A DNA stretch of 64,000 nucleotides, from positions 62,001 to 126,000 of the forward strand of contig NZ_CP078089.1 in NCBI RefSeq assembly GCF_022701195.1. The letters are read 5' to 3'. Shown in pieces: positions 11,383-52,915 of this stretch. The translations under genes and the position numbers were made by a program. The notes below the pieces were generated by a model. It worked only from the letters and a program-made list of their open reading frames with translations. It made no database searches and had not been told where the DNA came from. The stretch is from Allobaculum mucilyticum. Its GTDB lineage: Bacteria; Bacillota_I; Bacilli_A; Erysipelotrichales; Erysipelotrichaceae. How positions within the stretch are numbered: position 1 is the first letter of the stretch; the number at the start of each line of letters is the position of its first letter.

Positions 11383-11950
11383 AGTTTTTCTCCTGATTCA
11401 GTGCCGGAATTCTGCCAGTGAAAATGACGGAACCGGACAATATGTGAAATCTTAACATATTTCATTTGTATGAAAATTCAGTTTTCTGTTTTCAGAGAAG
11501 TTTGAAAGTTTTTCGTACTGTTTCAGCTCATCCTTGTAAGTTTCATCCTGCCCACAAGGGTAAACCAGCACAGTGTACAGAACTCTTTGCAAAAGCGGGG
11601 AGTGATTTGCTTCTTCATCGTTCAGGATCAGTAAGCATGTACAGATCGGGCAGATTTTTCGAAGATATGCAGGCTGATCCGCCTCGGCAGCGACAGAGAA
11701 CAGACTGCCAGAAAGGAATTTCGCTCTTTTGGAAGATTCCGACAGAACTCATGAAGTGAAAGTCTCTCTGGTATTGTTCCGATAAAGCAGAGCGGATCGG
11801 AACGAAGCGGATGCATAAGAATGAATATTATCTTATTCAGTGTATTTCTATCCTTATTAATCCTATTTATCTCTGTAAGACAGGAAGGAATCAAGTTTTG
11901 CGGTCAGAACTGTTGCGGTCATTCGTTCCGATTCCGTTCAGTCCGGTTCG
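11383..11950 (+). other. Divergent intergenic region between the ABC importer and the Fic gene
   Basis: About 570 bases without a supported gene. It holds the (unassigned) promoter of the - strand importer and a perfect 8-bp hairpin at 11776-11803 (GTTCCGAT / ATCGGAAC, 12-base loop) with no T-run. Short open frames here lack ribosome sites. Confidence 0.5.
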
Positions 11951-11956
11951 TATAAT
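11951..11956 (+). promoter_or_regulatory. Probable -10 box of the Fic gene
   Basis: A perfect TATAAT, 28 bases before the ATG at 11985. The -35 region (TTCCGA at 11926-11931) is poor and 19 bases away. It implies that the open frame upstream of 11963 is not translated. Confidence 0.5.
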
Positions 11957-11984
11957 GAAGTTGCCAATCAGGAGGCAGATGCCA

Positions 11985-12983
11985 ATGAAATACATGACGG
12001 TGCTGGAAGCTTCTAAGAAATGGGGCATCTCTGATCGTCGTGTCCGTTTTCTCTGTTCACAGGGAAGAATACGGGGCATTATTCAGCAGGGGCGGCGTTA
12101 TCTGATTCCGGAGACTACCGAAAAGCCGAGAGACGAACGGATCCGGAAAGCAAATTCCGCTGGTTCAAGGAAATATAACGATTTTACACGCCTGGACTTT
12201 CTTAAAGGCATGATCAGCGAACAGGAGAAAACCGATGTTCTTCCTCTAGCGGAAGAACCCCGGGAGTTTATGGTACATTTTTCCTGCAATACGGCAGCGC
12301 TTGAGGGCAGTACGCTGTCGGAGCAGCAGTGCGCTGCAATCTTTCAGGGACACGTTGTCGCTGATCATCCGCTTCGCGAACACCTCGAAGTTCTCGGCAT
12401 CAAAGATGCCATGACCTATGCCATCGAGTGTGTGAAGGAGCGCAAACCGCTTTCACAGAATGTCATCCGCAGCGTGCATCAGTTTCTCTGTCTGGACCAG
12501 CCCTTTTCCAAGGGCAAGTACCGCAGAGTCCGTGTCAGGATCAGCAATACCGAGTCGAGTCCGGTATATCTTGATCTGATGGAACCTCGAATCAACGACT
12601 TGCTTAACGCCAATACGCAGCGAAAAAAAGTGATGCATCCGATCGAGAGAATCGCACGATTCTATCTCGAGTTCGAAGGAATTCATCCCTTCGAAGAGGG
12701 AAACGGACGTACAGCCTGCATTCTGCTCAACCTTGAGCTGATGCAGAACGGCTACCCGCCGATCGATTTTTCCAGAGACGATCAGGAAACCCGGATCCTC
12801 GCGCTGCAGGATTATGAAAGTTCACATAATCCCGCGCAGATGATCCGTCTGATCTCCAAAAAAGCGGAAGAAGAAATGGAACACTATCTGAACAGAAGCC
12901 GGGAAAAACGATCGAAAAAAACAGCCGAACGCCAGCATGCAGACCCTTCCGCATTGCGGAAAAGCAGTCCGCTTCAGGCGTAA
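11985..12983 (+). CDS. Fic-domain protein with N-terminal DNA-binding helix-turn-helix
   Basis: A 332-residue Fic enzyme. Residues 5-42 (TVLEASKKWGISDRRVRFLC, then a beta hairpin ending RRYLIP) form a MerR/excisionase-type winged HTH. Residues 103-108, TAALEG, match the inhibitory helix motif (S/T)xxxE(G/N), which places it in class II, with the inhibitor in front of the Fic core. The active loop HPFEEGNGRT (234-243) has all catalytic residues, so transfer of AMP or a related group onto a protein hydroxyl is expected. The tail is basic. The start at 11985 has AGGAGG nine bases upstream; ATG 11979 is too close to it. No separate antitoxin is adjacent. Confidence 0.85.
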   Translation: MKYMTVLEASKKWGISDRRVRFLCSQGRIRGIIQQGRRYLIPETTEKPRDERIRKANSAGSRKYNDFTRLDFLKGMISEQEKTDVLPLAEEPREFMVHFSCNTAALEGSTLSEQQCAAIFQGHVVADHPLREHLEVLGIKDAMTYAIECVKERKPLSQNVIRSVHQFLCLDQPFSKGKYRRVRVRISNTESSPVYLDLMEPRINDLLNANTQRKKVMHPIERIARFYLEFEGIHPFEEGNGRTACILLNLELMQNGYPPIDFSRDDQETRILALQDYESSHNPAQMIRLISKKAEEEMEHYLNRSREKRSKKTAERQHADPSALRKSSPLQA

Positions 12984-13239
12984 TCTCAGAGTTGTACCGC
13001 ATCGATTCAGCTTCAGAAAAATCCAGAGGCATACACACTGGTCAAAACGGAGCAGGGAAAAGTCCCCGCTCCGTTTTCTGCTGTTCAGGCAAATGATCGA
13101 CACTGAAACACCTGACCGCAAAGTGCAGCTCACCGCTTTCGGGCAAAGCAGGAATCGTGTGATGAATGCTGATTTATACTTTGAAGAGTACAGCGGGATT
13201 GCCGCAATAGAGAAATCTATTCTTCAAGGAGGTTACATT

Positions 13240-14235
13240 ATGTGCACTGGACTTTCCTTCGCCAATGGAAACAGCCATTACTTCGGACGCAACCTTGACC
13301 TGGAAATCGACTACCCGGTTGACGTCGTCATTACACCTAGAAATCATCCGTTCCGCTTCAGAAATGCGGACGGTCTGAAAACCCACAATGCCATCATCGG
13401 CATGGGTCTCGTTCAGAATGACTACCCGCTCTATTTCGAGGGCGTTAACGATAAGGGCCTTGGCATGGCCGGACTCGCATTCTGGACAAGCTGCCATTAT
13501 TTTCCTGTTCAGGAAGGCAAACTCAATCTTGCATCTTTTGAAATCCTGCAGTACATCCTGGGCAAATGCTCCACTGTAGAAGAAGCAAAAGAAGAGTTCA
13601 AAAACATAAACATCACCAACGTCGGCTTCTCATCCGCAATGGCACCAAGTCCGCTTCACTGGCTGATCAGCGATGCGAACAGCTCCATCGTCGTTGAGCA
13701 GACCGAAGCCCATGGTCTGATGGTCTATGATGATCCGTTCAATGTTCTGACCAATGAGCCGGAATTCCCGTTCCATGAAAAGAACCTCTCGTTCTACTGC
13801 AACGTTTCCAATCATCTCGAAAACTTCTCAGAAACCCGCTTTGCTCCCAACTTCCCGGATTTCATCAAAATGGGCGCCGGCATGGGTACATCCGGACTGC
13901 CAGGCGGTCTTGATTCCATGTCCCGTTTCGTCCGCGTAGCGTTCACCCGCTTGAACTCCGTCTGCTCGAATGAGACAGAAGAATGCAGCATTCAGCAGTT
14001 CTTCCATATTCTGTCGTCTGTCTATCAGACCAATGGATGCGACCAGGTTAAACCTGGTGAATATGAAGTCACTCAGTATTCCTGCGGTGCAAACCTGGAA
14101 ACTGGACGCTTCTACTACACCACCTACTCCAACCAGTCCATCACTGCCGTTGACCTGCATAAAGAAGACCTCGACTCCGATCGAATCGTTTCCTATCCTG
14201 TCAAACGCGATCTTCGAGTTGAACTCCAGAACTAA
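13240..14235 (+). CDS. bsh: Bile salt hydrolase (choloylglycine hydrolase)
   Basis: A 331-residue Ntn-hydrolase that removes glycine or taurine from conjugated bile acids. Cys2, exposed after removal of Met1, is the nucleophile. The catalytic neighbours FGRNLDLE (Arg17, Asp20) are in place. So are the loop VLTNEPEFPFHEKNLSFY, with the conserved Asn, and GLPGGLDSMSRFVRVAF, with the catalytic Arg. Penicillin V acylase is the alternative in this family, but the last motif favours bile salts. The start is fixed by Cys2 and by AAGGAGG at 13226-13232. A longer upstream frame would bury the nucleophile. It stands alone with its own terminator and has no signal peptide, as usual for cytoplasmic BSH. 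Confidence 0.88.
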   Translation: MCTGLSFANGNSHYFGRNLDLEIDYPVDVVITPRNHPFRFRNADGLKTHNAIIGMGLVQNDYPLYFEGVNDKGLGMAGLAFWTSCHYFPVQEGKLNLASFEILQYILGKCSTVEEAKEEFKNINITNVGFSSAMAPSPLHWLISDANSSIVVEQTEAHGLMVYDDPFNVLTNEPEFPFHEKNLSFYCNVSNHLENFSETRFAPNFPDFIKMGAGMGTSGLPGGLDSMSRFVRVAFTRLNSVCSNETEECSIQQFFHILSSVYQTNGCDQVKPGEYEVTQYSCGANLETGRFYYTTYSNQSITAVDLHKEDLDSDRIVSYPVKRDLRVELQN

Positions 14236-17853: not shown

Positions 17854-17912
17854 GCAGACAGATTTTCCGACAGGAAAGAAATGATCAGCACGTTCTATTC
17901 TTTTGTCTTATT

Positions 17913-17965
17913 GCCTGAAGTGTTCATCCCAAGACCATCTGGATGAATGCTTCAGGCTTGTTTGC
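17913..17965 (+). terminator. Terminator after the MATE exporter
   Basis: Seventeen-base arms (GCCTGAAGTGTTCATCC / GGATGAATGCTTCAGGC, two mismatched positions), then TTGTTTG. The following 210 bases up to 18175 hold the leader of the next operon; no clear promoter was found there. Confidence 0.75.
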
Positions 17966-18175
17966 ACAGTTTTCGTGTTTTTTGCTTCGAATCGACATGG
18001 TTCTTGTGTAATTTCCATTTCGTCTTATCTTTTCAACCGGATTTGATACGCTAAATATATTCGCCATGACGATCCGAATCGTGATTGAACGAACCAAAAC
18101 AGACTCTGTCCTCTCTATAGGCTCATTTTTTCTTTGGAGGGAGAGCAGAGGTTCTGTGTTCGCAGGAGAGATTGA

Positions 18176-20356
18176 ATGAATAGAACAATTCATAACGAGG
18201 AACTGCCATATCGTGTCGGCGGTCTGCTCTATACGCCCGCACTTAACCGGTCGATTGCCAGAAAGCTGCTTGAAGGGCAGATTCCCTCACTGAGCTCTTT
18301 AGCGTTCTGTCTGGAAGACGCCATTACCGATGAAAGCCTTGCGGACGCGCAGAAGCAGCTCAGGATCACACTGGGCGAATTATCCGGAGCTTCCAGTGAG
18401 CTTCCGCTCCTATTTGTACGCGTCCGGACGCCAGAGCATATGGCACAGGTTCATGAAGAACTTGGCGAACTTGAAGATCTGCTGACAGGCTATATTGCTC
18501 CAAAATTTGATGAATCCAACGCGGATGGCTACTGTACGCAGATCGAACAGTGGAACAAAGACAGCAAAAACCGGCTGTACCTGATGCCGATCCTGGAAAG
18601 CCATGCGGTTGCTCATCCGGCCAATCGGATTTCCAATCTGCTGAACATTAAAAACCGGATCGATATGATCCGGCCATATATCCTCAATGTCCGTGCAGGC
18701 GGCAATGATTTTTCCAATCTGTTTGGTCTGCGCCGAAACAGCTCACAGACGATCTACGACATTGGCATGATTCAGAATATTCTTACCGATATCCTGAGTA
18801 TCTTTTCTGCCGATTATGTCGTTTCCGGTCCAGTCTGGGAATACTTTGGATCAAACGATCAGGATCCCTGGGCACAGGGCCTGCGCAGAGAACTGGAACT
18901 CGATCTGCTCAACGGCTTCATCGGAAAGACTGCCATTCATCCAAGCCAGCTTCCTGTAATTGCCGAAAGTCTGAAAGTCGATCTGCATGATTATGAAGAT
19001 GCAAGACGCATTGTTTCATGGAGCAGCGAGGGACTTGGCGTTGGAAAAAGCGCAAACAAAGACCGGATGAACGAAGTCAAATGCCATCAGAAATGGGCAG
19101 AAATGATTCTGCTGCGCGCAAGGATTTATGGAATCCGCACGAATGAAGAAAACGAAGAAGCCGTTAAACGGGCTCTGTTCCGCCTTCATCAGCAGGAAAA
19201 GATCAGCCTGCATCCTTATGCAGAAGACGAGCTGCTCCAGGTTGCAAAACGGGTCAATAATCCAAAGCGCTCCTATCTGCTAGTTAATCCGCTGCAGGCC
19301 AAGCATGTTCCTGTTTCTCCCAATGAAGCATTGCAGATGATGGAAAACTTGGCTGCAAAAGTTCTGAACACCGTGTCATCCAATGAATCGCTACTGGTCA
19401 TCGGCTTTGCGGAAACCGCTACTGCAATTGCCCGTGAAATCGCGAAATCACTTGGCGAAGATACCGGCTTTATTCATACCACCAGAGAAAAATCTAAAGA
19501 TGCTGGCTCATTCCTGTTTTTCAGCGAAGAACACAGTCATGCAGCAGAACAGAAGCTCGTCGCTGATCGTCTCAGTGAACTGATCGATGCATGCGACACT
19601 GTACTCTTTGTTGACGATGAGTTCACAACAGGCAAAACGCTTCTCAATATGATCCGCGTCCTGGAACAGAAATGTCCAACTCTTGCAGAGCGTCGAAAGA
19701 TTGCGGTCTCTGTGATCTGCCGTCTGAACGATGAAAACAGACAGAGATGGACAGAAAACAGTCTGGAGAGTATCAGTCTGCTTGATCTTCCTGAAGGCGA
19801 CTTTGACAGAGAGGTATCAACAATTGAAGCCAGTCTGGGAACACCGTTTGCGCCCTCTGGCGAAAATAAACAGACGATCAGCCAGAGCGCTGAATATTAT
19901 GCTCCGGATGCACGGATTGGCTTTCTGATCCGTGAAGAAAACCAGGCAGCAAAAGAGCAGTCAGCCAGTGATCTGGATCTGATGCAGACATTTGGTCTGC
20001 ATCCAGATGAGAATGTCCTCGTTCTGGGTACTGAAGAGTTCATGTATGAAGCCATTGCCCTTGGAAAAGCTCTTGAAGACTGCAAAAAGCTGCATTCTGT
20101 CCGTGTTCATGCCACAACCCGCTCACCGATCGGTATCTGCTCTGATGAAGGATATCCGATTGGAAGCGGCCATCAGATTCCCAGTTTCTATGATCCGCAG
20201 CGGACAACCTATCTCTATAACATCGGCTCGTATGATGCCGTCTTCTTTGTCACCGATGCAGAAAACCCGAATCCCAACGCTCTGGAAGTGCTGATGGAGA
20301 TGTTTGGTAAGAAGGGCTGCACGCACTTTATTGAAGTCAGAAGGAGAAAGAAATGA
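18176..20356 (+). CDS. C-C lyase + phosphoribosyltransferase + TRSP fusion (ter-module biosynthetic enzyme)
   Basis: A 726-residue three-part protein. Residues 1-310 resemble the HpcH/CitE-like TIM-barrel lyase of Ter-associated operons (FCLEDAI near 44, RAGGNDFSNLFG near 173, GFIGKTAIHPSQLPVI near 247). Residues 360-550 are a phosphoribosyltransferase with the PRPP loop VLFVDDEFTTGKT (476-488). Residues 605-722 are the TRSP domain, with the name-giving motif TRSP at 648-651 and GICSDEGYPIGSGHQIPSFYD after it. In the Ter stress systems these modules are predicted to build a nucleoside-like metabolite. They are commonly separate genes, so the fusion is notable. The gene is first in an operon and overlaps the next as ATGA. 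Ribosome site is GCAGGAG. Confidence 0.82.
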   Translation: MNRTIHNEELPYRVGGLLYTPALNRSIARKLLEGQIPSLSSLAFCLEDAITDESLADAQKQLRITLGELSGASSELPLLFVRVRTPEHMAQVHEELGELEDLLTGYIAPKFDESNADGYCTQIEQWNKDSKNRLYLMPILESHAVAHPANRISNLLNIKNRIDMIRPYILNVRAGGNDFSNLFGLRRNSSQTIYDIGMIQNILTDILSIFSADYVVSGPVWEYFGSNDQDPWAQGLRRELELDLLNGFIGKTAIHPSQLPVIAESLKVDLHDYEDARRIVSWSSEGLGVGKSANKDRMNEVKCHQKWAEMILLRARIYGIRTNEENEEAVKRALFRLHQQEKISLHPYAEDELLQVAKRVNNPKRSYLLVNPLQAKHVPVSPNEALQMMENLAAKVLNTVSSNESLLVIGFAETATAIAREIAKSLGEDTGFIHTTREKSKDAGSFLFFSEEHSHAAEQKLVADRLSELIDACDTVLFVDDEFTTGKTLLNMIRVLEQKCPTLAERRKIAVSVICRLNDENRQRWTENSLESISLLDLPEGDFDREVSTIEASLGTPFAPSGENKQTISQSAEYYAPDARIGFLIREENQAAKEQSASDLDLMQTFGLHPDENVLVLGTEEFMYEAIALGKALEDCKKLHSVRVHATTRSPIGICSDEGYPIGSGHQIPSFYDPQRTTYLYNIGSYDAVFFVTDAENPNPNALEVLMEMFGKKGCTHFIEVRRRKK

Positions 20357-21402
20357 GAAGCAGCTATCTCGATGAAGATGTAACGATTCTTCTAAAAGAC
20401 ATTACCGGACAGGTTGAGCCGCTTCCTGCAACGATCCGGGAAAAGCGGATCCAGAGCGGAACGCATTACTGTGAAATGCTGCCGCTTGAATATGTCCCAT
20501 CTTCGGCGTATCTGAAAACATATGAGCAGGCTCTTGAGCTCTACGCGCAGATTACAGCGGATGCGCTGGCACGTCTTGGGGATGCCATCTGGGCAGAGAA
20601 GAACGGAAAGCCGGTCCTGGTTTCGCTTGCCAGAGCCGGTACACCGATCGGCATTCTGCTTCGCCGCTATATCCGAAAGAAATACGGCTTTGATGTCCCG
20701 CACTATACGATTTCGATCATCCGTGGCAGAGGCATCGATAAAAACGCTATGGACTATATCCTTGAGCGTCATGATCCATCGTCCATTCAGTTTGTGGATG
20801 GCTGGACAGGAAAAGGAGCGATTCAAAGACAGCTGATCGAAGCTATAACAGACTATCCGGAAGTTTCTGCAGGCCTTGCAGTTCTTTCTGATGCCGCCTG
20901 GACTGCAGAAAAATGCGGAACGCATGATGATTTTCTCATTGCATCTTCGTGCCTCAACGCAACTGTCTCCGGTCTGATCAGCCGGACATTTCTTAGCAGT
21001 GATCTCATCGGTCCTGAAGATTTTCATGGAGCGATGTACTATGGAGAGCTCAAAGACGAAGACCGGACCTACGAATTTATCCATACGATCGAATCGCATT
21101 TCCGTTATGATCTGCAGCCTGAAGAGGATCGTAAAACCGAGCTGACCGGGCTGGAAGAGGTCCATTCGATCTGCGAACACTTTTCGATTTCGGACATCAA
21201 TCTGGTAAAACCCGGAATTGGTGAAGCGACCCGTGTGCTGCTGCGGCGCATTCCGGAACGGATTCTTGTCCGCAGTCTGGATGATTTCGACCATCTTGGC
21301 CATCTCTATCAGCTGGCCATGGAAAAAGATGTTCCAGTTGAAGTCTATCCGCTCAAGAACTACAGAGCCTGCGGAATTATCCGCTCGATAGGCGACTGCT
21401 GA
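20353..21402 (+). CDS. StiP-type phosphoribosyltransferase with C-terminal PELOTA RNA-binding domain
   Basis: A 349-residue protein matching the StiP / PRTase_1 + PELOTA_1 architecture of Ter-associated operons. The N-terminal two-thirds has YVPSSAYLKTYEQALELYA, PVLVSLARAGTPIGILLRRYI and HYTISIIRGRGIDKNAM, with FVDGWTGKGAIQRQL as the PRPP-side loop. The older name 'cysteine protease StiP' is not supported by any protease motif here. The last 85 residues (LVKPGIGEATRVLLRRIPERILVRS and on) fit the PELOTA fold. It overlaps the previous gene by 4 bases and the next by 1, so one translationally coupled operon is clear. The predicted role is ribosylation of the operon's metabolite. Confidence 0.8.
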   Translation: MRSSYLDEDVTILLKDITGQVEPLPATIREKRIQSGTHYCEMLPLEYVPSSAYLKTYEQALELYAQITADALARLGDAIWAEKNGKPVLVSLARAGTPIGILLRRYIRKKYGFDVPHYTISIIRGRGIDKNAMDYILERHDPSSIQFVDGWTGKGAIQRQLIEAITDYPEVSAGLAVLSDAAWTAEKCGTHDDFLIASSCLNATVSGLISRTFLSSDLIGPEDFHGAMYYGELKDEDRTYEFIHTIESHFRYDLQPEEDRKTELTGLEEVHSICEHFSISDINLVKPGIGEATRVLLRRIPERILVRSLDDFDHLGHLYQLAMEKDVPVEVYPLKNYRACGIIRSIGDC

Positions 21403-22196
21403 TGAAGATTCTTCTTGCCTGTGATCTCGACAACACGCTGATCCACTCTTTCCGCCATGTACAGCCTGGCGAGCCATGCATTGAATGGCTCAACGGAAAC
21501 GAGCAGAGTTACGTGACCAGAAAAACCTTCGAGATCCTCTCAGACGGTCTGCCCGAGGACATCCTCGTTGTACCCATCACTTCACGCTCGATTGCCCAGT
21601 ACCAGAGAATCATCTGGCCGCAGGACCAGGCACCGCGGTATGCACTGACGTCCGGAGGCGGCATTCTGCTCGAACAGGGTGAAGAAAACAATGCCTGGAA
21701 AGAGCAGAGCAGGGCGATTAATGAGAGTTTCGGTGCGGCAGAGTGTTTTGCAAAGGCTGCTGAGCTGCTCTCTTTAATGCCCGGTCTGAAAAGCTGCCGC
21801 ATGATCGATTCGATCTATCTCTTTGCTCATTTTTACTCAGAAGAATCAGCAAGTAAGGCGTTGAGTCTTCTGAAACAGGCAGAAAGCGATGCCTGGAAAG
21901 ACCGGATTTCTGCTTTACTGGTACGGCGCAAACTCTATCTCTTCAGTCCGGCTGCCGATAAAGGGGCTGCGCTTGAGCGGCTTAAAGCAAAGTTTGACGC
22001 AGATCTTGTTCTTGCAGCCGGAGACTGCTCGCCGGATCTTTCCATGCTTAAACAGGCGGATCTTGCACTGATTCCAGATTCACAGATGGCTGATTCTCTG
22101 ATTCCTGCATCGACAAAGATCTGTCCTGAATCCATTCCGTTTTCTGATTTCATTCTTCAGACAGCTCTGTCCTGTCTGGACGATTTACGCAAATGA
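21402..22196 (+). CDS. HAD-superfamily phosphatase of the ter-like operon
   Basis: A 264-residue Cof-like HAD hydrolase. Motif I is ACDLDNTLIHS (residues 6-16; Asp8 and Asp10 catalytic), motif II is PITSRS near residue 61 and motif IV is AAGDCSPDLSML near residue 205. A cap domain lies between. HAD phosphatases are standard members of the Ter-linked biosynthesis module, where they are thought to dephosphorylate a nucleotide-like intermediate. The start overlaps the previous stop as TGATG. Immediately after the stop codon comes a 16-bp hairpin that separates it from the HD gene. Confidence 0.82.
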   Translation: MKILLACDLDNTLIHSFRHVQPGEPCIEWLNGNEQSYVTRKTFEILSDGLPEDILVVPITSRSIAQYQRIIWPQDQAPRYALTSGGGILLEQGEENNAWKEQSRAINESFGAAECFAKAAELLSLMPGLKSCRMIDSIYLFAHFYSEESASKALSLLKQAESDAWKDRISALLVRRKLYLFSPAADKGAALERLKAKFDADLVLAAGDCSPDLSMLKQADLALIPDSQMADSLIPASTKICPESIPFSDFILQTALSCLDDLRK

Positions 22197-22237
22197 AAAG
22201 TGCAGAGATCCGGCAAGTACCGGTTTCTCTGCACTTT
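22197..22237 (+). promoter_or_regulatory. Strong hairpin between the HAD and HD genes
   Basis: A 12-bp perfect outer stem (AAAGTGCAGAGA / TCTCTGCACTTT) and, after a small bulge, an inner CCGG/CCGG stem with a CAAGTA loop. It begins with the first base after the HAD stop codon and ends on the base before the ribosome site GGGAG of the HD gene. A TTT run lies only within the stem, so termination would be partial. It may set the HD gene's expression or protect the upstream mRNA 3' end. Confidence 0.65.
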
Positions 22238-22247
22238 GGGAGTTTAT

Positions 22248-22757
22248 ATGCTTTCAGATCACAAGACAGACGGCTATGCAAAGCTGTCTGAACAGACCTT
22301 TTCCAGATACGCACGGATCGTAAATCCGGTTCTGCGTACCTTTGCGATTGAACATACCGCAATGACTGTATCCTTTATGACCATGATCGCTTTGCGACGG
22401 AATCTGGACTTCGAGTCCGCCAGAATAGCTGCTCTGCTTCATGATGCCGGCAAATTTGATCTCAACGAAGGCTCCGCAAGACATGCGGCAGCTGGCGCAT
22501 TACGTGCAGAAGAGCTGCTAAGCGAGAGCGGATGCTTTTCACAGAGCCAGATTGACTCGATCTGCGAAGCAATCCGCCTGCATTCCAGTAAAGATCAGAT
22601 CGACAGTCCGCTTGCAGAAGCACTTAAAGATGCGGATGTTCTTGCTTCCTGGGCCGTTCATCCTGATGATCCTCTTTCCCAAGTCAGACAGAAGCGTCTG
22701 GAGAAGACGTGTGCTGAACTGAACATTCCTCTTCAGACTCCATCTGCTAAGAAATAG
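22248..22757 (+). CDS. HD-domain phosphohydrolase
   Basis: A 169-residue HD-superfamily protein. His from the segment FAIEHTAMTVSFM, the HD pair in AALLHDAGKFDLNEG (about residue 63), a further His in RHAAAGALRAEELL and AIRLHSSKDQ near residue 115, and Asp in LKDADVLASW give the metal-binding set of a small HD phosphohydrolase. Substrate unknown; nucleotides are the usual choice. It follows the ter-like biosynthesis genes after the strong hairpin, so it may act on the same pathway. The start at 22248 was chosen for its GGGAG site. The upstream in-frame reading would run through the hairpin. Confidence 0.75.
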   Translation: MLSDHKTDGYAKLSEQTFSRYARIVNPVLRTFAIEHTAMTVSFMTMIALRRNLDFESARIAALLHDAGKFDLNEGSARHAAAGALRAEELLSESGCFSQSQIDSICEAIRLHSSKDQIDSPLAEALKDADVLASWAVHPDDPLSQVRQKRLEKTCAELNIPLQTPSAKK

Positions 22758-25042: not shown

Positions 25043-25783
25043 TTATTTTGCGCATCTGAGAATCAGGCTGTCCGGAATTCTTTTCCAGGTTGTTCCGTCA
25101 TACGCTGTTTCCCATGCCGTTCCCGGCTGATGTGTCAGAGCAACCAGCTCATGGGCACTCAGATCACCGTACTTTTGCAGCACTTCTTTAATGACCGCCA
25201 TTTTGGTAAGACCGTCTTCGGCTCTGGCCATCCTGCAGTCTTTTACAGTCGGTGTATGGTCATCAAAATCTGTGATCAGCTTGTCACGGAGATCTTCATC
25301 TTTATAATCTCTGGTCTGATAATAGAAGTCCTCTGCAACCGGACCATACTGGAATGCATAGATACCATCATCAAACAGCTGCTGTCCAGTCTGTTTCAGA
25401 TAAGCTTCATAGCACAGATAGACCAGTTTCTGCAGCTTAAGCTTGCCGGCATCCATTCTTGAAAGAATGTAGGCAGCAATATCGATACTGCTCAGCTGAA
25501 GATCGGCGTTTACGTATTCCATAAACTCATCCACAGACTTGCAGAAATATACTTTTTCAAAGTATGGATCACTCTTTTTTACATCTTCAGTCTCTGCTGA
25601 AGCAAGATCCTTGACGTGCAGAGAAACAGGAACTGAATGAATGTTTCTGCCCATAATTTCCCGATGAACTTCTTTTGCATGCTGATTCTGTTCGCCTTCC
25701 CCAACAACGACTTCAATTGCGACACGCCGGTGTTTTGTATAAGACGTAGCGGTAAAAATATAGTGTCGATACATTCTAATCAC
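25043..25783 (-). CDS. panA: Panacea-domain (SocA/DUF4065) antitoxin
   Basis: A 246-residue protein. Residues ~98-235 are a Panacea/DUF4065 domain: IAAYILSRMDAGKLKLQKLVYLCYEAYL, then DGIYAFQYGPVAEDFYYQTRDY and LSAHELVALTHQPGTAWETAYDG are diagnostic. About 95 residues precede it and are not recognised. Panacea proteins are general antitoxins (PanA) that neutralise very different partner toxins, including small RelA/SpoT-like synthetases. Here the partner is the gene just upstream, whose stop overlaps this start by 4 bases. Position second in the operon is the reverse of the commonest antitoxin-first order. The terminator follows directly. Antitoxin role is inferred from family and context. Confidence 0.82.
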   Translation of the reverse strand: MIRMYRHYIFTATSYTKHRRVAIEVVVGEGEQNQHAKEVHREIMGRNIHSVPVSLHVKDLASAETEDVKKSDPYFEKVYFCKSVDEFMEYVNADLQLSSIDIAAYILSRMDAGKLKLQKLVYLCYEAYLKQTGQQLFDDGIYAFQYGPVAEDFYYQTRDYKDEDLRDKLITDFDDHTPTVKDCRMARAEDGLTKMAVIKEVLQKYGDLSAHELVALTHQPGTAWETAYDGTTWKRIPDSLILRCAK

Positions 25784-26418
25784 TTCCTTTCACTATATTC
25801 AGTATAGTTCTGTTTATAAGTTTTATGCGAGATAAGATTGTTTTCTCTATCCTCGCCATTCCAGATCTGAAGCTCCCAGCTCGGTGAGAAGTTCGACTCC
25901 TGGATATAGACATGAATCGCAGTATAGTCATTTTTCGTCGCGTCGGTACACCGAAAACGCGTTGAATCACAGAAGACTGTCTTCAGAGCCTGAAGCAGCT
26001 GTTCACGGTCTGGCGAAGCAGTCAGACACAGTCTGAAACCGACGGTATCATTCAGGCATTTCTTTAAGGGAACTATTCCCTTTTCACTTCGGTTCATATA
26101 CCGGTCGACCTTATCCGTCAGAGAATCCCATTCCTTTACCCGGAACTCTACAGTGAAAGAGACTTTCGGCTGGAACTGGTGTGAAGGCAAATCCATCAGG
26201 TGCTGATCTGCATAGAACTTGTACACTTTAAAATACCTGAACAGTTCATCACCATACAGCCTGGACAGATTATGCTTGAAGTTGATTTGGCACGGGCATT
26301 CATCCTTCCATTCGATACTTGTCTGGTAATGAAAGTCAGATAGTGCCCAGATAAAAGCTTCAATGTCTCTGAAGGTTTCTGCGAATTCAGCTTGATTCAT
26401 GTCTGATATATTAATCAA
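25780..26418 (-). CDS. toxSAS: RelA/SpoT-like synthetase toxin
   Basis: A 212-residue single-domain protein with all key RelA/SpoT synthetase residues. These are RVKEWDSLTDK (93-103, matching R-x-K-xxx-S-xxx-K of the ATP site), NDTVGFR (Asp124), NDYTAIH (Tyr165 and His169 of the G-loop) and ELQIW (Glu182). There is no hydrolase, TGS or ACT domain. Small toxic synthetases (toxSAS) make pp(p)App or pyrophosphorylate the tRNA CCA end and stop growth. The overlap with a Panacea antitoxin makes that role much more likely than housekeeping (p)ppGpp synthesis. The first in-frame start is TTG 26418; ATG 26400 is the alternative. No strong ribosome site is visible for either. Confidence 0.85.
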   Translation of the reverse strand: MINISDMNQAEFAETFRDIEAFIWALSDFHYQTSIEWKDECPCQINFKHNLSRLYGDELFRYFKVYKFYADQHLMDLPSHQFQPKVSFTVEFRVKEWDSLTDKVDRYMNRSEKGIVPLKKCLNDTVGFRLCLTASPDREQLLQALKTVFCDSTRFRCTDATKNDYTAIHVYIQESNFSPSWELQIWNGEDRENNLISHKTYKQNYTEYSERK

Positions 26419-51265: not shown

Positions 51266-52915
51266 CAATGTCATTAAGTTAAGATTTCTCAGACCACATC
51301 AGCGTTAAGCAGTGATGTGGTCTTTTTTCTACTCTTCAAGTCAAATCTCGAATGATTCGAGTTTTTTCACTTTTTTCTAAAAATCTATTGACAAATTTCT
51401 GCCGCCGCGCGGCTGCTTCGCAGCCGATGGGGAGAACTTAAAGGAGTTTTCCCTATGACTGCTATCGCCAAAGAATGTTCTTTCTTCAGAAACACCTTCC
51501 TCAATATCATCAGCTCAGAAACGGCGAACCCTGCCAATTTTACTTCTCAGTCCGCCTTCACCCGTAAGCGGCAGATTGACCTGCATGAGCTTGTCCTTCT
51601 TCCGTTTCAGCTGACAGAGGAATCCCTCGCTGCTTCCTTTCCCTGGATCCTGTTTAAGGGCGGATCATCTGTTTCAGCCTCTGCTGTGTCTCAGGCCCGT
51701 TCCAAAATCAACTCTTCACTTTATAAAAACGTCTTCAATCGGTTTAACAAGGCAACTTCCAGCTCTGATGTTAAAACCTTCAAGGGTTATCGCCTCCTCG
51801 CTGTAGATGGAAGCGAGATTCAAGTTCTTCCTGAACAGGACAATGACATCACCTATGGCGCTTCTAAAAAAGGCAAGAAGAGGCACTTTGTTCATTTGAA
51901 TGCCGAATTCGACGCCCTCAACTCCGTCTTTACTGACGCGCTGCTTCAACCCGGCTCTGAGAAGAATGAAGATTCAGCTCTTCTTGAACTCGCTCAGCGT
52001 TCTTCATTTCAGAAAGCCATCTTCATCGCTGATCGGGGATACGAAGCTCTTATGTCTTTCTATCGCCTGCAGAAGGAACATGTCCCTTTTGTCATACGTA
52101 TCAAAGACGAGACATCATCTACAAGCATTCTCAAGTACTATAAGACTCCCGAGTCAGAAGAGTATGACATTCCTTTCAATGTGATTCTGACCAGTAAAAA
52201 CAACAGGCATGTCAAAGACCATTGGGATGTCTATAAGTACATCTCTTCGTACAGGAAGCAGCCTGAATTTGACGGTCAAACGACTGAACTCCCTTTAAAT
52301 ATCAGGGTTGTGAGGTTCAAAGCTGCCTGCGAAGGGAATGAATCATTCATTACCGTCTGCACCAATCTGTCGGAAGCTGAGTTTGGGACCGAGGACATCA
52401 AGCAGATCTACCGTCTGCGCTGGCAGGTTGAAGTCGGCTTCAGGGGACTGAAACGAAACACCGATCTTGAATGGACTCATTCAAGGAAGCTTGATCTGGT
52501 CCAGGCAGAGATCTATGCCAAAATGACTCTCTACAATCTTTGTTCCCGTTTGCGCAACAAGGTAGAAAGATCTCGTCAGCACCAGAAGCGCATCGCTCAG
52601 GCCAAAAAGCACAAGCAGAAGGCAGATTTCGGATTCATCATCAAAACGATTCAACAGTGGCTGTTCAAAAAAGCCAGAATCAGCTTGAGTACACTGGAAG
52701 ATCTTCTTCTGGCCAGGATATCTCCGATCAGAGAAGGAAGAGCTGATACCAGAAAGAAGAAGTGACAGATTTGAAAACCGAAAAGTCATCAGGATGATTT
52801 TTTCAACAGGTAGAAAATCATCCTTTTCGTCATGCCTGAGACGCAAAATATAAGAAATGACAACGCTCATGAACAGGGTATACGATTTTTATCCCTCCTT
52901 AACTTAATGACATTG
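51266..52915 (+). mobile_element. Complete IS4-family insertion sequence
   Basis: A 1650-base element bounded by perfect 18-base inverted repeats: CAATGTCATTAAGTTAAG at 51266-51283 and its reverse complement at 52898-52915. It is flanked by a perfect 10-base direct repeat ACTAGTGTAC (51256-51265 and 52916-52925), the target duplication. Inside the left end is a strong terminator (51291-51323, 11-bp stem, T6) that shields the transposase from outside transcription. A TTGACA at 51388-51393 and a hairpin at 51410-51426 precede the gene. A second terminator (52791-52824) follows it. Intact ends and perfect duplication indicate recent insertion. Confidence 0.95.
51455..52765 (+). CDS. IS4-family transposase
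   Basis: A 436-residue DDE transposase with an intact frame. The catalytic residues lie in LLAVDGSEIQVLP (first Asp, near residue 118), AIFIADRGYEALMSFY (second Asp, near 192) and the YREK-like motif IYRLRWQVEVGFRGLKRNTDLE (Glu, near 318). The N-terminus (ESLAASFPWILFKGGSSVSASAVSQARSK) and the basic C-terminus are typical of the family. AAAGGAG lies 8 bases upstream of the start. A short GC hairpin just before the ribosome site may limit translation from read-through mRNA. Confidence 0.93.
   Translation: MTAIAKECSFFRNTFLNIISSETANPANFTSQSAFTRKRQIDLHELVLLPFQLTEESLAASFPWILFKGGSSVSASAVSQARSKINSSLYKNVFNRFNKATSSSDVKTFKGYRLLAVDGSEIQVLPEQDNDITYGASKKGKKRHFVHLNAEFDALNSVFTDALLQPGSEKNEDSALLELAQRSSFQKAIFIADRGYEALMSFYRLQKEHVPFVIRIKDETSSTSILKYYKTPESEEYDIPFNVILTSKNNRHVKDHWDVYKYISSYRKQPEFDGQTTELPLNIRVVRFKAACEGNESFITVCTNLSEAEFGTEDIKQIYRLRWQVEVGFRGLKRNTDLEWTHSRKLDLVQAEIYAKMTLYNLCSRLRNKVERSRQHQKRIAQAKKHKQKADFGFIIKTIQQWLFKKARISLSTLEDLLLARISPIREGRADTRKKK

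Follow-up and report, generated by a model that had tools for sequence, protein, structure and literature searches.

A probable Ter metabolite module with a fused lyase-phosphoribosyltransferase gene in Allobaculum mucilyticum

The window analysed here is a 64,000-nt stretch of the Allobaculum mucilyticum contig NZ_CP078089.1 (positions 62,001 to 126,000 of the forward strand), within which all pieces are numbered, and it contains a compact module of three overlapping genes between coordinates 18176 and 22196. Profile searches of the open reading frames (ORFs) of the window against Pfam, together with motif searches, identify a gene in which a C-C lyase is fused to a phosphoribosyltransferase (PRTase) with a TRSP domain, followed by genes for a StiP-PELOTA protein and a HAD phosphatase. 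The genes and domains are as follows, with protein lengths and positions in amino acids (aa).

18176-20356, + strand: fused C-C lyase / PRTase_2 / TRSP gene, 726 aa (ORF, Pfam and motifs)
18203-19135, + strand: C-C_Bond_Lyase domain (PF15617), CitE-like, aa 10-320 (E = 1.9e-98)
19136-19231, + strand: fusion linker of ~32 codons, with no in-frame ATG, GTG or TTG (CTG is present)
19232-19747, + strand: PRTase_2 domain (PF15609), aa 353-524 (E = 2.1e-42)
19910-20299, + strand: TRSP domain (PF12500), aa 579-708 (E = 3.3e-25)
20353-21402, + strand: gene for the StiP-PELOTA protein, 349 aa (PF11202 StiP, E = 7e-101; PF15608 PELOTA_1, E = 1.6e-29)
21402-22196, + strand: gene for a HAD-IIB type phosphatase, 264 aa (S6PP and HAD-SF-IIB profiles, motifs)

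This enzyme set belongs with the Ter metabolite genes, as the first-pass annotation of this DNA, made from its letters alone, had proposed: lyase, PRTase_2 with TRSP, StiP with PELOTA_1 and HAD were all matched when the segments were searched, and the lyase and PRTase-TRSP do form a single 726-residue chain encoded by one ORF. StiP is presumably the family earlier named PRTase_1. The overlaps seen in that annotation are also present, the fusion and StiP genes sharing an ATGA (20353) and the StiP and HAD genes a TGATG (21400), such that the HAD start shares one base with the StiP stop codon. A motif search finds the phosphoribosyl pyrophosphate (PRPP) loop VLFVDDEFTTGKT at aa 476-488 in the PRTase_2 half and the TRSP motif at aa 648-651 of the fusion protein; MPILES and GGNDFS are intact in the lyase, as are DLDNT (aa 8) and GDCSPD (aa 207) in the HAD protein, and we take these lyase, PRTase, TRSP and HAD motifs to be the catalytic sites. 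The HAD protein matches S6PP above the cut-off (E = 1.8e-6) and HAD-SF-IIB at E = 2.9e-9 and 37.3 bits, which is under the 41.8 cut-off of that model. Among solved structures, the lyase profile matches CLYBL/CitE and malyl-CoA lyase (best E = 1.3e-9), and the PRTase_2-TRSP profile has a weak match to HPRT/APRT (best E = 0.0094).

The Ter metabolite gene set was reportedly set out by Anantharaman, Iyer and Aravind in 2012, with a nucleoside-like product predicted. The A. mucilyticum genes agree with it in the lyase, the PRTase_2-TRSP, the StiP/PRTase-PELOTA and the HAD components and in being accompanied by TerD and TelA within the genome, and differ in the one-chain lyase/PRTase-TRSP, in the distance and different kinship of the TerD locus, and in that no dedicated ATP-grasp or PF03741 TerC was found (the DUF475 type was not searched). 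Passages of two later papers describe the Ter system as combining PRTases and HAD enzymes that synthesize a signal with ligand-binding TerB and TerD, TerC and TelA (PMC7824862), and the Ter cluster as predicted to make a nucleoside-like metabolite whose link to the TerC complex was unclear as of 2021 (PMC8115787).

For comparison we took, from at least 590 StiP relatives confirmed in genome_contigs, the 80 with the best matches; these are mostly Clostridia and Negativicutes by name, many of them from gut or rumen, and their StiP proteins are 52-67% identical to that of the window. To read their gene content, ORFs from the flanking DNA (at most 10 kb on either side, often less) were compared by BLAST, which revealed PRTase in 72, lyase and HAD in 52 each, TerD in 43, a P-type ATPase in 34, YceG in 30 and TelA in 29, with no match to the DUF475 reference in any of the 80. 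The best identity of the window's HAD protein to those of the relatives is 39%. Lyase, PRTase and StiP genes stand in a row in 25/80 and form a quartet with HAD in 12/80. A compact quartet lacking a nearby TerD gene is not special to this window: six of the 12 (L063, L071, L074, L103, L108 and L132) have no TerD in the flanking DNA, and all six genomes have TerD elsewhere. Four further loci (L089, L092, L093 and L095) have StiP and HAD with no lyase or PRTase match in the flanking DNA, again with TerD elsewhere in the genome, and are perhaps a reduced module.

The closest of these relatives are modules of Oscillospiraceae and Selenomonadaceae (e.g. L053, L071 and L074; StiP 62-67% and lyase 48-57% identical), which are likewise compact quartets, partly without TerD in the flanking DNA, whereas their lyase and PRTase are separate. 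The Lactococcus cremoris plasmid pFI430 (NC_025249) has the same order of lyase, PRTase, StiP and HAD type genes, followed by YceG, TelA and three TerD genes as in the distant locus of A. mucilyticum; in contrast, all of its genes are in a row and unfused, and a DUF475 gene, which we take to be TerC-like, stands where A. mucilyticum has an ATPase gene. The Klebsiella ter cluster (NZ_CP141562) shares the enzyme set, with PRTase, a HAD-size hypothetical gene, StiP and lyase beside terD-type genes, but is unfused, has another gene order and includes an ATP-grasp gene. The Klebsiella ATP-grasp matched no ORF of the window and matched ORFs of 15/80 relatives, and is thus not universal in the module. 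The only record found in a phage collection (L043, MT836648.1, 'Bacteriophage sp.') has a ter island of P-type ATPase, three TerD, TelA, YceG, an inverted lyase, StiP and PRTase genes; its other ORFs are bacterial by eye, and it looks like mislabelled bacterial DNA.

There is no TerD gene in the window, as the first-pass annotation had noted, nor within 10 kb of the module, but the genome does contain three TerD genes (PF02342) at C1:2195045-2197584, and all of its TerD matches are near 2.195 Mb; Bacillus subtilis, used as a control for this search, also gave a TerD match. By Pfam, this TerD locus (2.19-2.20 Mb) consists of YceG, TelA (PF05816, E = 9.9e-76), the three TerD genes and a cation P-type ATPase. 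It lies on the same 3.14 Mb contig as the module (~80-84 kb), 2.1 Mb away, or 1.0 Mb the other way if the contig is circular, and the only PRTase_2 match in the whole genome is the one in the window. Elsewhere, two genomes that are Selenomonadaceae by the names of L073 and L074 have TerD domains embedded in very long open frames (1378 aa at G550:C7:10480 and 1439 aa at G551:C196:6259).

The 37 relatives without a nearby TerD were traced to whole genomes, 34 of which have TerD elsewhere (G569 by a short partial match only), such that TerD accompanies the StiP of the module in 77/80 relatives. A base rate was taken from 291 genomes drawn from the class to which G570 (Dorea sp. 5-2) belongs, presumably Clostridia, with the centre excluded to give n = 290; TerD is present in nine and StiP in seven, and all seven StiP genomes also have TerD (Fisher p = 1e-12). 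StiP thus nearly implies TerD in a genome, and the converse fails, since two of the nine TerD genomes lack StiP. In the family of the window, PRTase_2 is above the cut-off in 1/195 genomes (32/195 at E <= 0.001, the 31 others being sub-cut-off) and TerD is present in 3/195, with this genome carrying both; a phylum sample has PRTase_2 in 2/392 genomes. Among the relatives examined, the second gene of the module is thus hardly ever found in a genome that lacks TerD, including where the two lie at a distance from each other, which favours a diffusible product that is sensed by a TerD complex.

Given the TerD genes in this genome and the co-occurrence of StiP and TerD in both the relatives and the class sample, these genes most likely represent a fused form of the known Ter metabolite module, acting as the metabolite arm of a Ter stress response whose TerD/TelA/YceG/P-type ATPase locus works in trans from 1-2 Mb away, a reading to which we assign a probability of about 0.77. 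In such a pathway the CitE-like lyase would make or break a C-C bond to give a small building block, and the PRTase_2-TRSP and the StiP-PELOTA protein, the latter as a second phosphoribosyltransferase, would use PRPP to couple it to ribose phosphate. The HAD enzyme would then take off a phosphate to yield a diffusible nucleoside-like compound, which the TerD/TelA complex would sense; the loci need not adjoin, since the product would diffuse.

The first-pass annotation had instead suggested that the genes could be a free-standing module with its product used in another way. Such a module would not depend on TerD, and the HD hydrolase encoded nearby might act on its product. The 1-2 Mb separation, the different kinship of the TerD locus (see below) and the position of the HD gene 51 bases downstream are consistent with this, and three modules outside the 80 lack TerD in the available DNA, which is short of a whole genome in each case (the Brevibacillus plasmid L044, 26 kb; G208, an 11.4 kb contig; and the viral contig L154, 17 kb). 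This explanation is nonetheless very unlikely given TerD in this genome, in 77/80 relatives and in 7/7 StiP genomes of the class sample, and given an HD gene that sits behind a strong hairpin and adjoins the module in none of the 80. The same annotation had named a terD locus elsewhere in the genome, using these genes, as evidence against a free-standing module; the TerD genes are present, and we infer that their locus uses those of the module.

Several observations in addition to these three modules weigh against assigning the genes to a Ter response. TerD was not found in three of the 37 genomes followed (G556, G571 and G578, metagenome-assembled genomes by name), TerD occurs without StiP as noted, and the 80 relatives are kin to each other and were picked by similarity. 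The only match to the ATPgrasp_Ter profile across the genome is a carbamoyl-phosphate synthase, recognized by its sequence, which we rejected as a Ter ligase, and no dedicated Ter ATP-grasp was found in the window or elsewhere in the genome; TerC (PF03741) has no match across the genome, where the DUF475 type was not searched. The module and the TerD locus, being of differing kinship, may also not be adapted to each other, and the product, substrates and mechanism given here are predictions from the genes.

The two kinships are evident in sequence comparisons. In a rapidly built tree of 89 StiP rows, which raised long-branch warnings for G208, the window falls within a set of 36 rows (support 96) made up mostly of Oscillospiraceae and Selenomonadaceae. 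It is distant from G208, which belongs to the same class, and identities to the relatives reach 67% for StiP and 57% for the lyase. TelA, the three TerD proteins and the ATPase share 69-81% identity with their counterparts in another member of the family (G039), where PRTase_2 was not found, and their best identities to the loci of the 80 relatives are 40% (TelA), 42% (TerD) and 46% (ATPase). In a similarly rapid tree of 32 TelA rows, this genome and G039 form a pair (support 100) on a stem whose great length leaves the place of the pair unsure. YceG is nearest to that of G208, at 28%, and was not found on the piece of G039 read, which begins ~0.8 kb upstream of TelA. The simplest reading of these relationships is that the metabolite module was imported and serves the TerD locus of the family; it would have been acquired from a pool of gut Clostridia and Negativicutes.

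Insertion sequences (IS) are abundant in the genome. At 51455-52765 of the window is a DDE transposase gene (436 aa) with at least 40 copies showing 100% identity across 1311 bases (from 109 candidates at first pass), and a further copy encoding the same protein, outside the 40, is at L006:3356-4666; the copies reflect a very recent IS burst. A single ter operon could have been split by rearrangement between such elements, as the same genes are close together in other genomes and the further copy just mentioned belongs to the TerD locus, where it lies upstream of YceG at a distance of 1.3 kb. However, the neighbours of the module are MATE, HD and DUF697/EcsC genes rather than IS, and the strong resemblance of TelA, TerD and ATPase to those of G039, against at most 46% to the relatives that share the StiP type, together with the well-supported if long-stemmed TelA pair, reflects two kinships, by which we judge a simple split of one operon to be the less likely course and, overall, unlikely.

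The StiP-PELOTA protein requires separate consideration, as Pfam describes PF11202 as a cysteine protease, in which case the module would be partly proteolytic. His117 and His225 are invariant among the StiP homologues, the StiP profile matched no PRTase among solved structures in the PDB, and it does not align with the PRTase_2 profile, all of which a protease would accommodate; for the PELOTA portion, the search did find L7Ae (best E = 0.0025). The candidate nucleophile fares less well, as Cys200 is kept in 50/55 homologues and is Ile or Phe in the other five, including the ter proteins of Klebsiella and Vibrio, and the invariant columns of the alignment contain no Cys. By contrast, R94, R124, D129, D149, G150, W151, K154 and G155 are invariant in 55/55, and D149, G150 and K154 are part of a PRPP-loop-like motif. 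The loss of Cys200 and the constancy of these residues fit a PRPP-loop enzyme better than a cysteine protease, so that StiP-PELOTA is probably a second phosphoribosyltransferase, and the proteolytic alternative seems quite unlikely.

The fusion of lyase and PRTase distinguishes this module from its relatives, none of which has the two in one ORF (0/51 of those showing both enzymes, by BLAST of fetched ORFs); adjacent lyase-PRTase pairs are mostly overlapping or near (26 rows, two of which are the same G208 locus, with ORFs at their longest extent). The two genes are also separate in Lactococcus pFI430, in the Alkaliphilus, Brevibacillus and Mycolicibacterium plasmids, and in G208 of the same class. 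Viral contigs, three together, have StiP at two loci, lyase at two and PRTase at two, and in the pair with both enzymes (L051 and L154) these are again separate genes. The whole fusion used as a query against genome_contigs gave no matches, although the StiP alignment did retrieve relatives. Among the papers listed by literature searches, no title or abstract opening describes a lyase/PRTase-TRSP fusion, and Anantharaman, Iyer and Aravind 2012 may mention one.

Because the genes overlap or nearly so in relatives, an assembly or base-calling error could have merged them, and the estimated genome completeness is 92.5%. The frame is, however, open over 726 codons, and a separate PRTase gene would need an ATG, GTG or TTG in a linker that offers only CTG in frame, leaving the PRTase half without an evident start of its own. 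The identity of at least 40 transposase gene copies further suggests few base errors in the assembly, though polishing of repeats could have the same effect. We regard an artefactual fusion as very unlikely.

The limits of the module are indicated by two hairpins, the second of which precedes the HD gene.

17913-17957, + strand: strong hairpin 3' of the MATE transporter gene, the probable end of the upstream transcript (from the fold of 17900-18180)
22197-22237, + strand: strong hairpin directly after the HAD stop codon, a probable module end or processing site (from folding; no long U tract)
22248-22757, + strand: HD-domain gene, a neighbour judged to be outside the module (HD, E = 2.5e-11; 0/80 relatives)

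The upstream gene is a MatE match in Pfam; the fold of 17900-18180 has z = -3.6 for the whole stretch, and the stem at 17913-17957 is also in the centroid. The downstream hairpin has -30.7 kcal/mol over the 81 nt folded (z = -5.3). The listed GTG start of the HD gene (22200) falls inside this hairpin, and the start is likely the ATG at 22248, which has its own GGGAG ahead and is 51 bases past the HAD stop. No Rfam match or tRNA was found in the window.

The HD hydrolase had been described as attached to the module, where four coupled genes were counted. The fusion, StiP-PELOTA and HAD genes do overlap, but the HD gene is uncoupled from them, and no HD homologue was found in the flanking DNA of the 80 relatives. 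Homologues are present in three of the four other members of the genus that were searched; PRTase_2 had no match in any of these four (three of the four genomes being only 58-67% complete), and the two intact copies read (in G116 and G003) are in other surroundings. In the single-contig genus genome G136 (L141; 58% estimated completeness) the HD homologue is in three pieces, perhaps reflecting many frameshift errors. We rejected the HD gene as part of the module on its absence beside the relatives, its other surroundings in G116 and G003 and its broken state in G136; with the hairpin, its own start and the genus homologues lacking PRTase_2, we judge it to look like a gene of the genus.

Other genes in the window include a choloylglycine hydrolase (CBAH, E = 7.6e-82) at ~13144-14235 of the bile-salt-hydrolase type, which fits a gut habitat and a bacterium that is probably from the gut, with a Fic-domain gene ahead of it at 11811-12983. 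On the minus strand, a gene for a RelA/SpoT-domain protein followed by an overlapping one for a Panacea (SocA-like) protein (25043-26418) resembles what we take to be a toxSAS-PanA toxin-antitoxin pair.

If the fusion is real, it suggests that the lyase and PRTase-TRSP catalyse consecutive steps, since one chain carries both, and the two would then work in one complex. More tentatively, and with doubt outweighing confidence, the fusion may be a Rosetta-stone clue to a complex that passes an intermediate between its active sites, within a metabolite cassette that is exchangeable and could act in trans, via a diffusible signal, for a TerD/TelA/P-type ATPase locus to which it is unrelated. The single chain of lyase and PRTase-TRSP would be a handy protein for expression, and it narrows which two steps of the Ter metabolite pathway may be successive.

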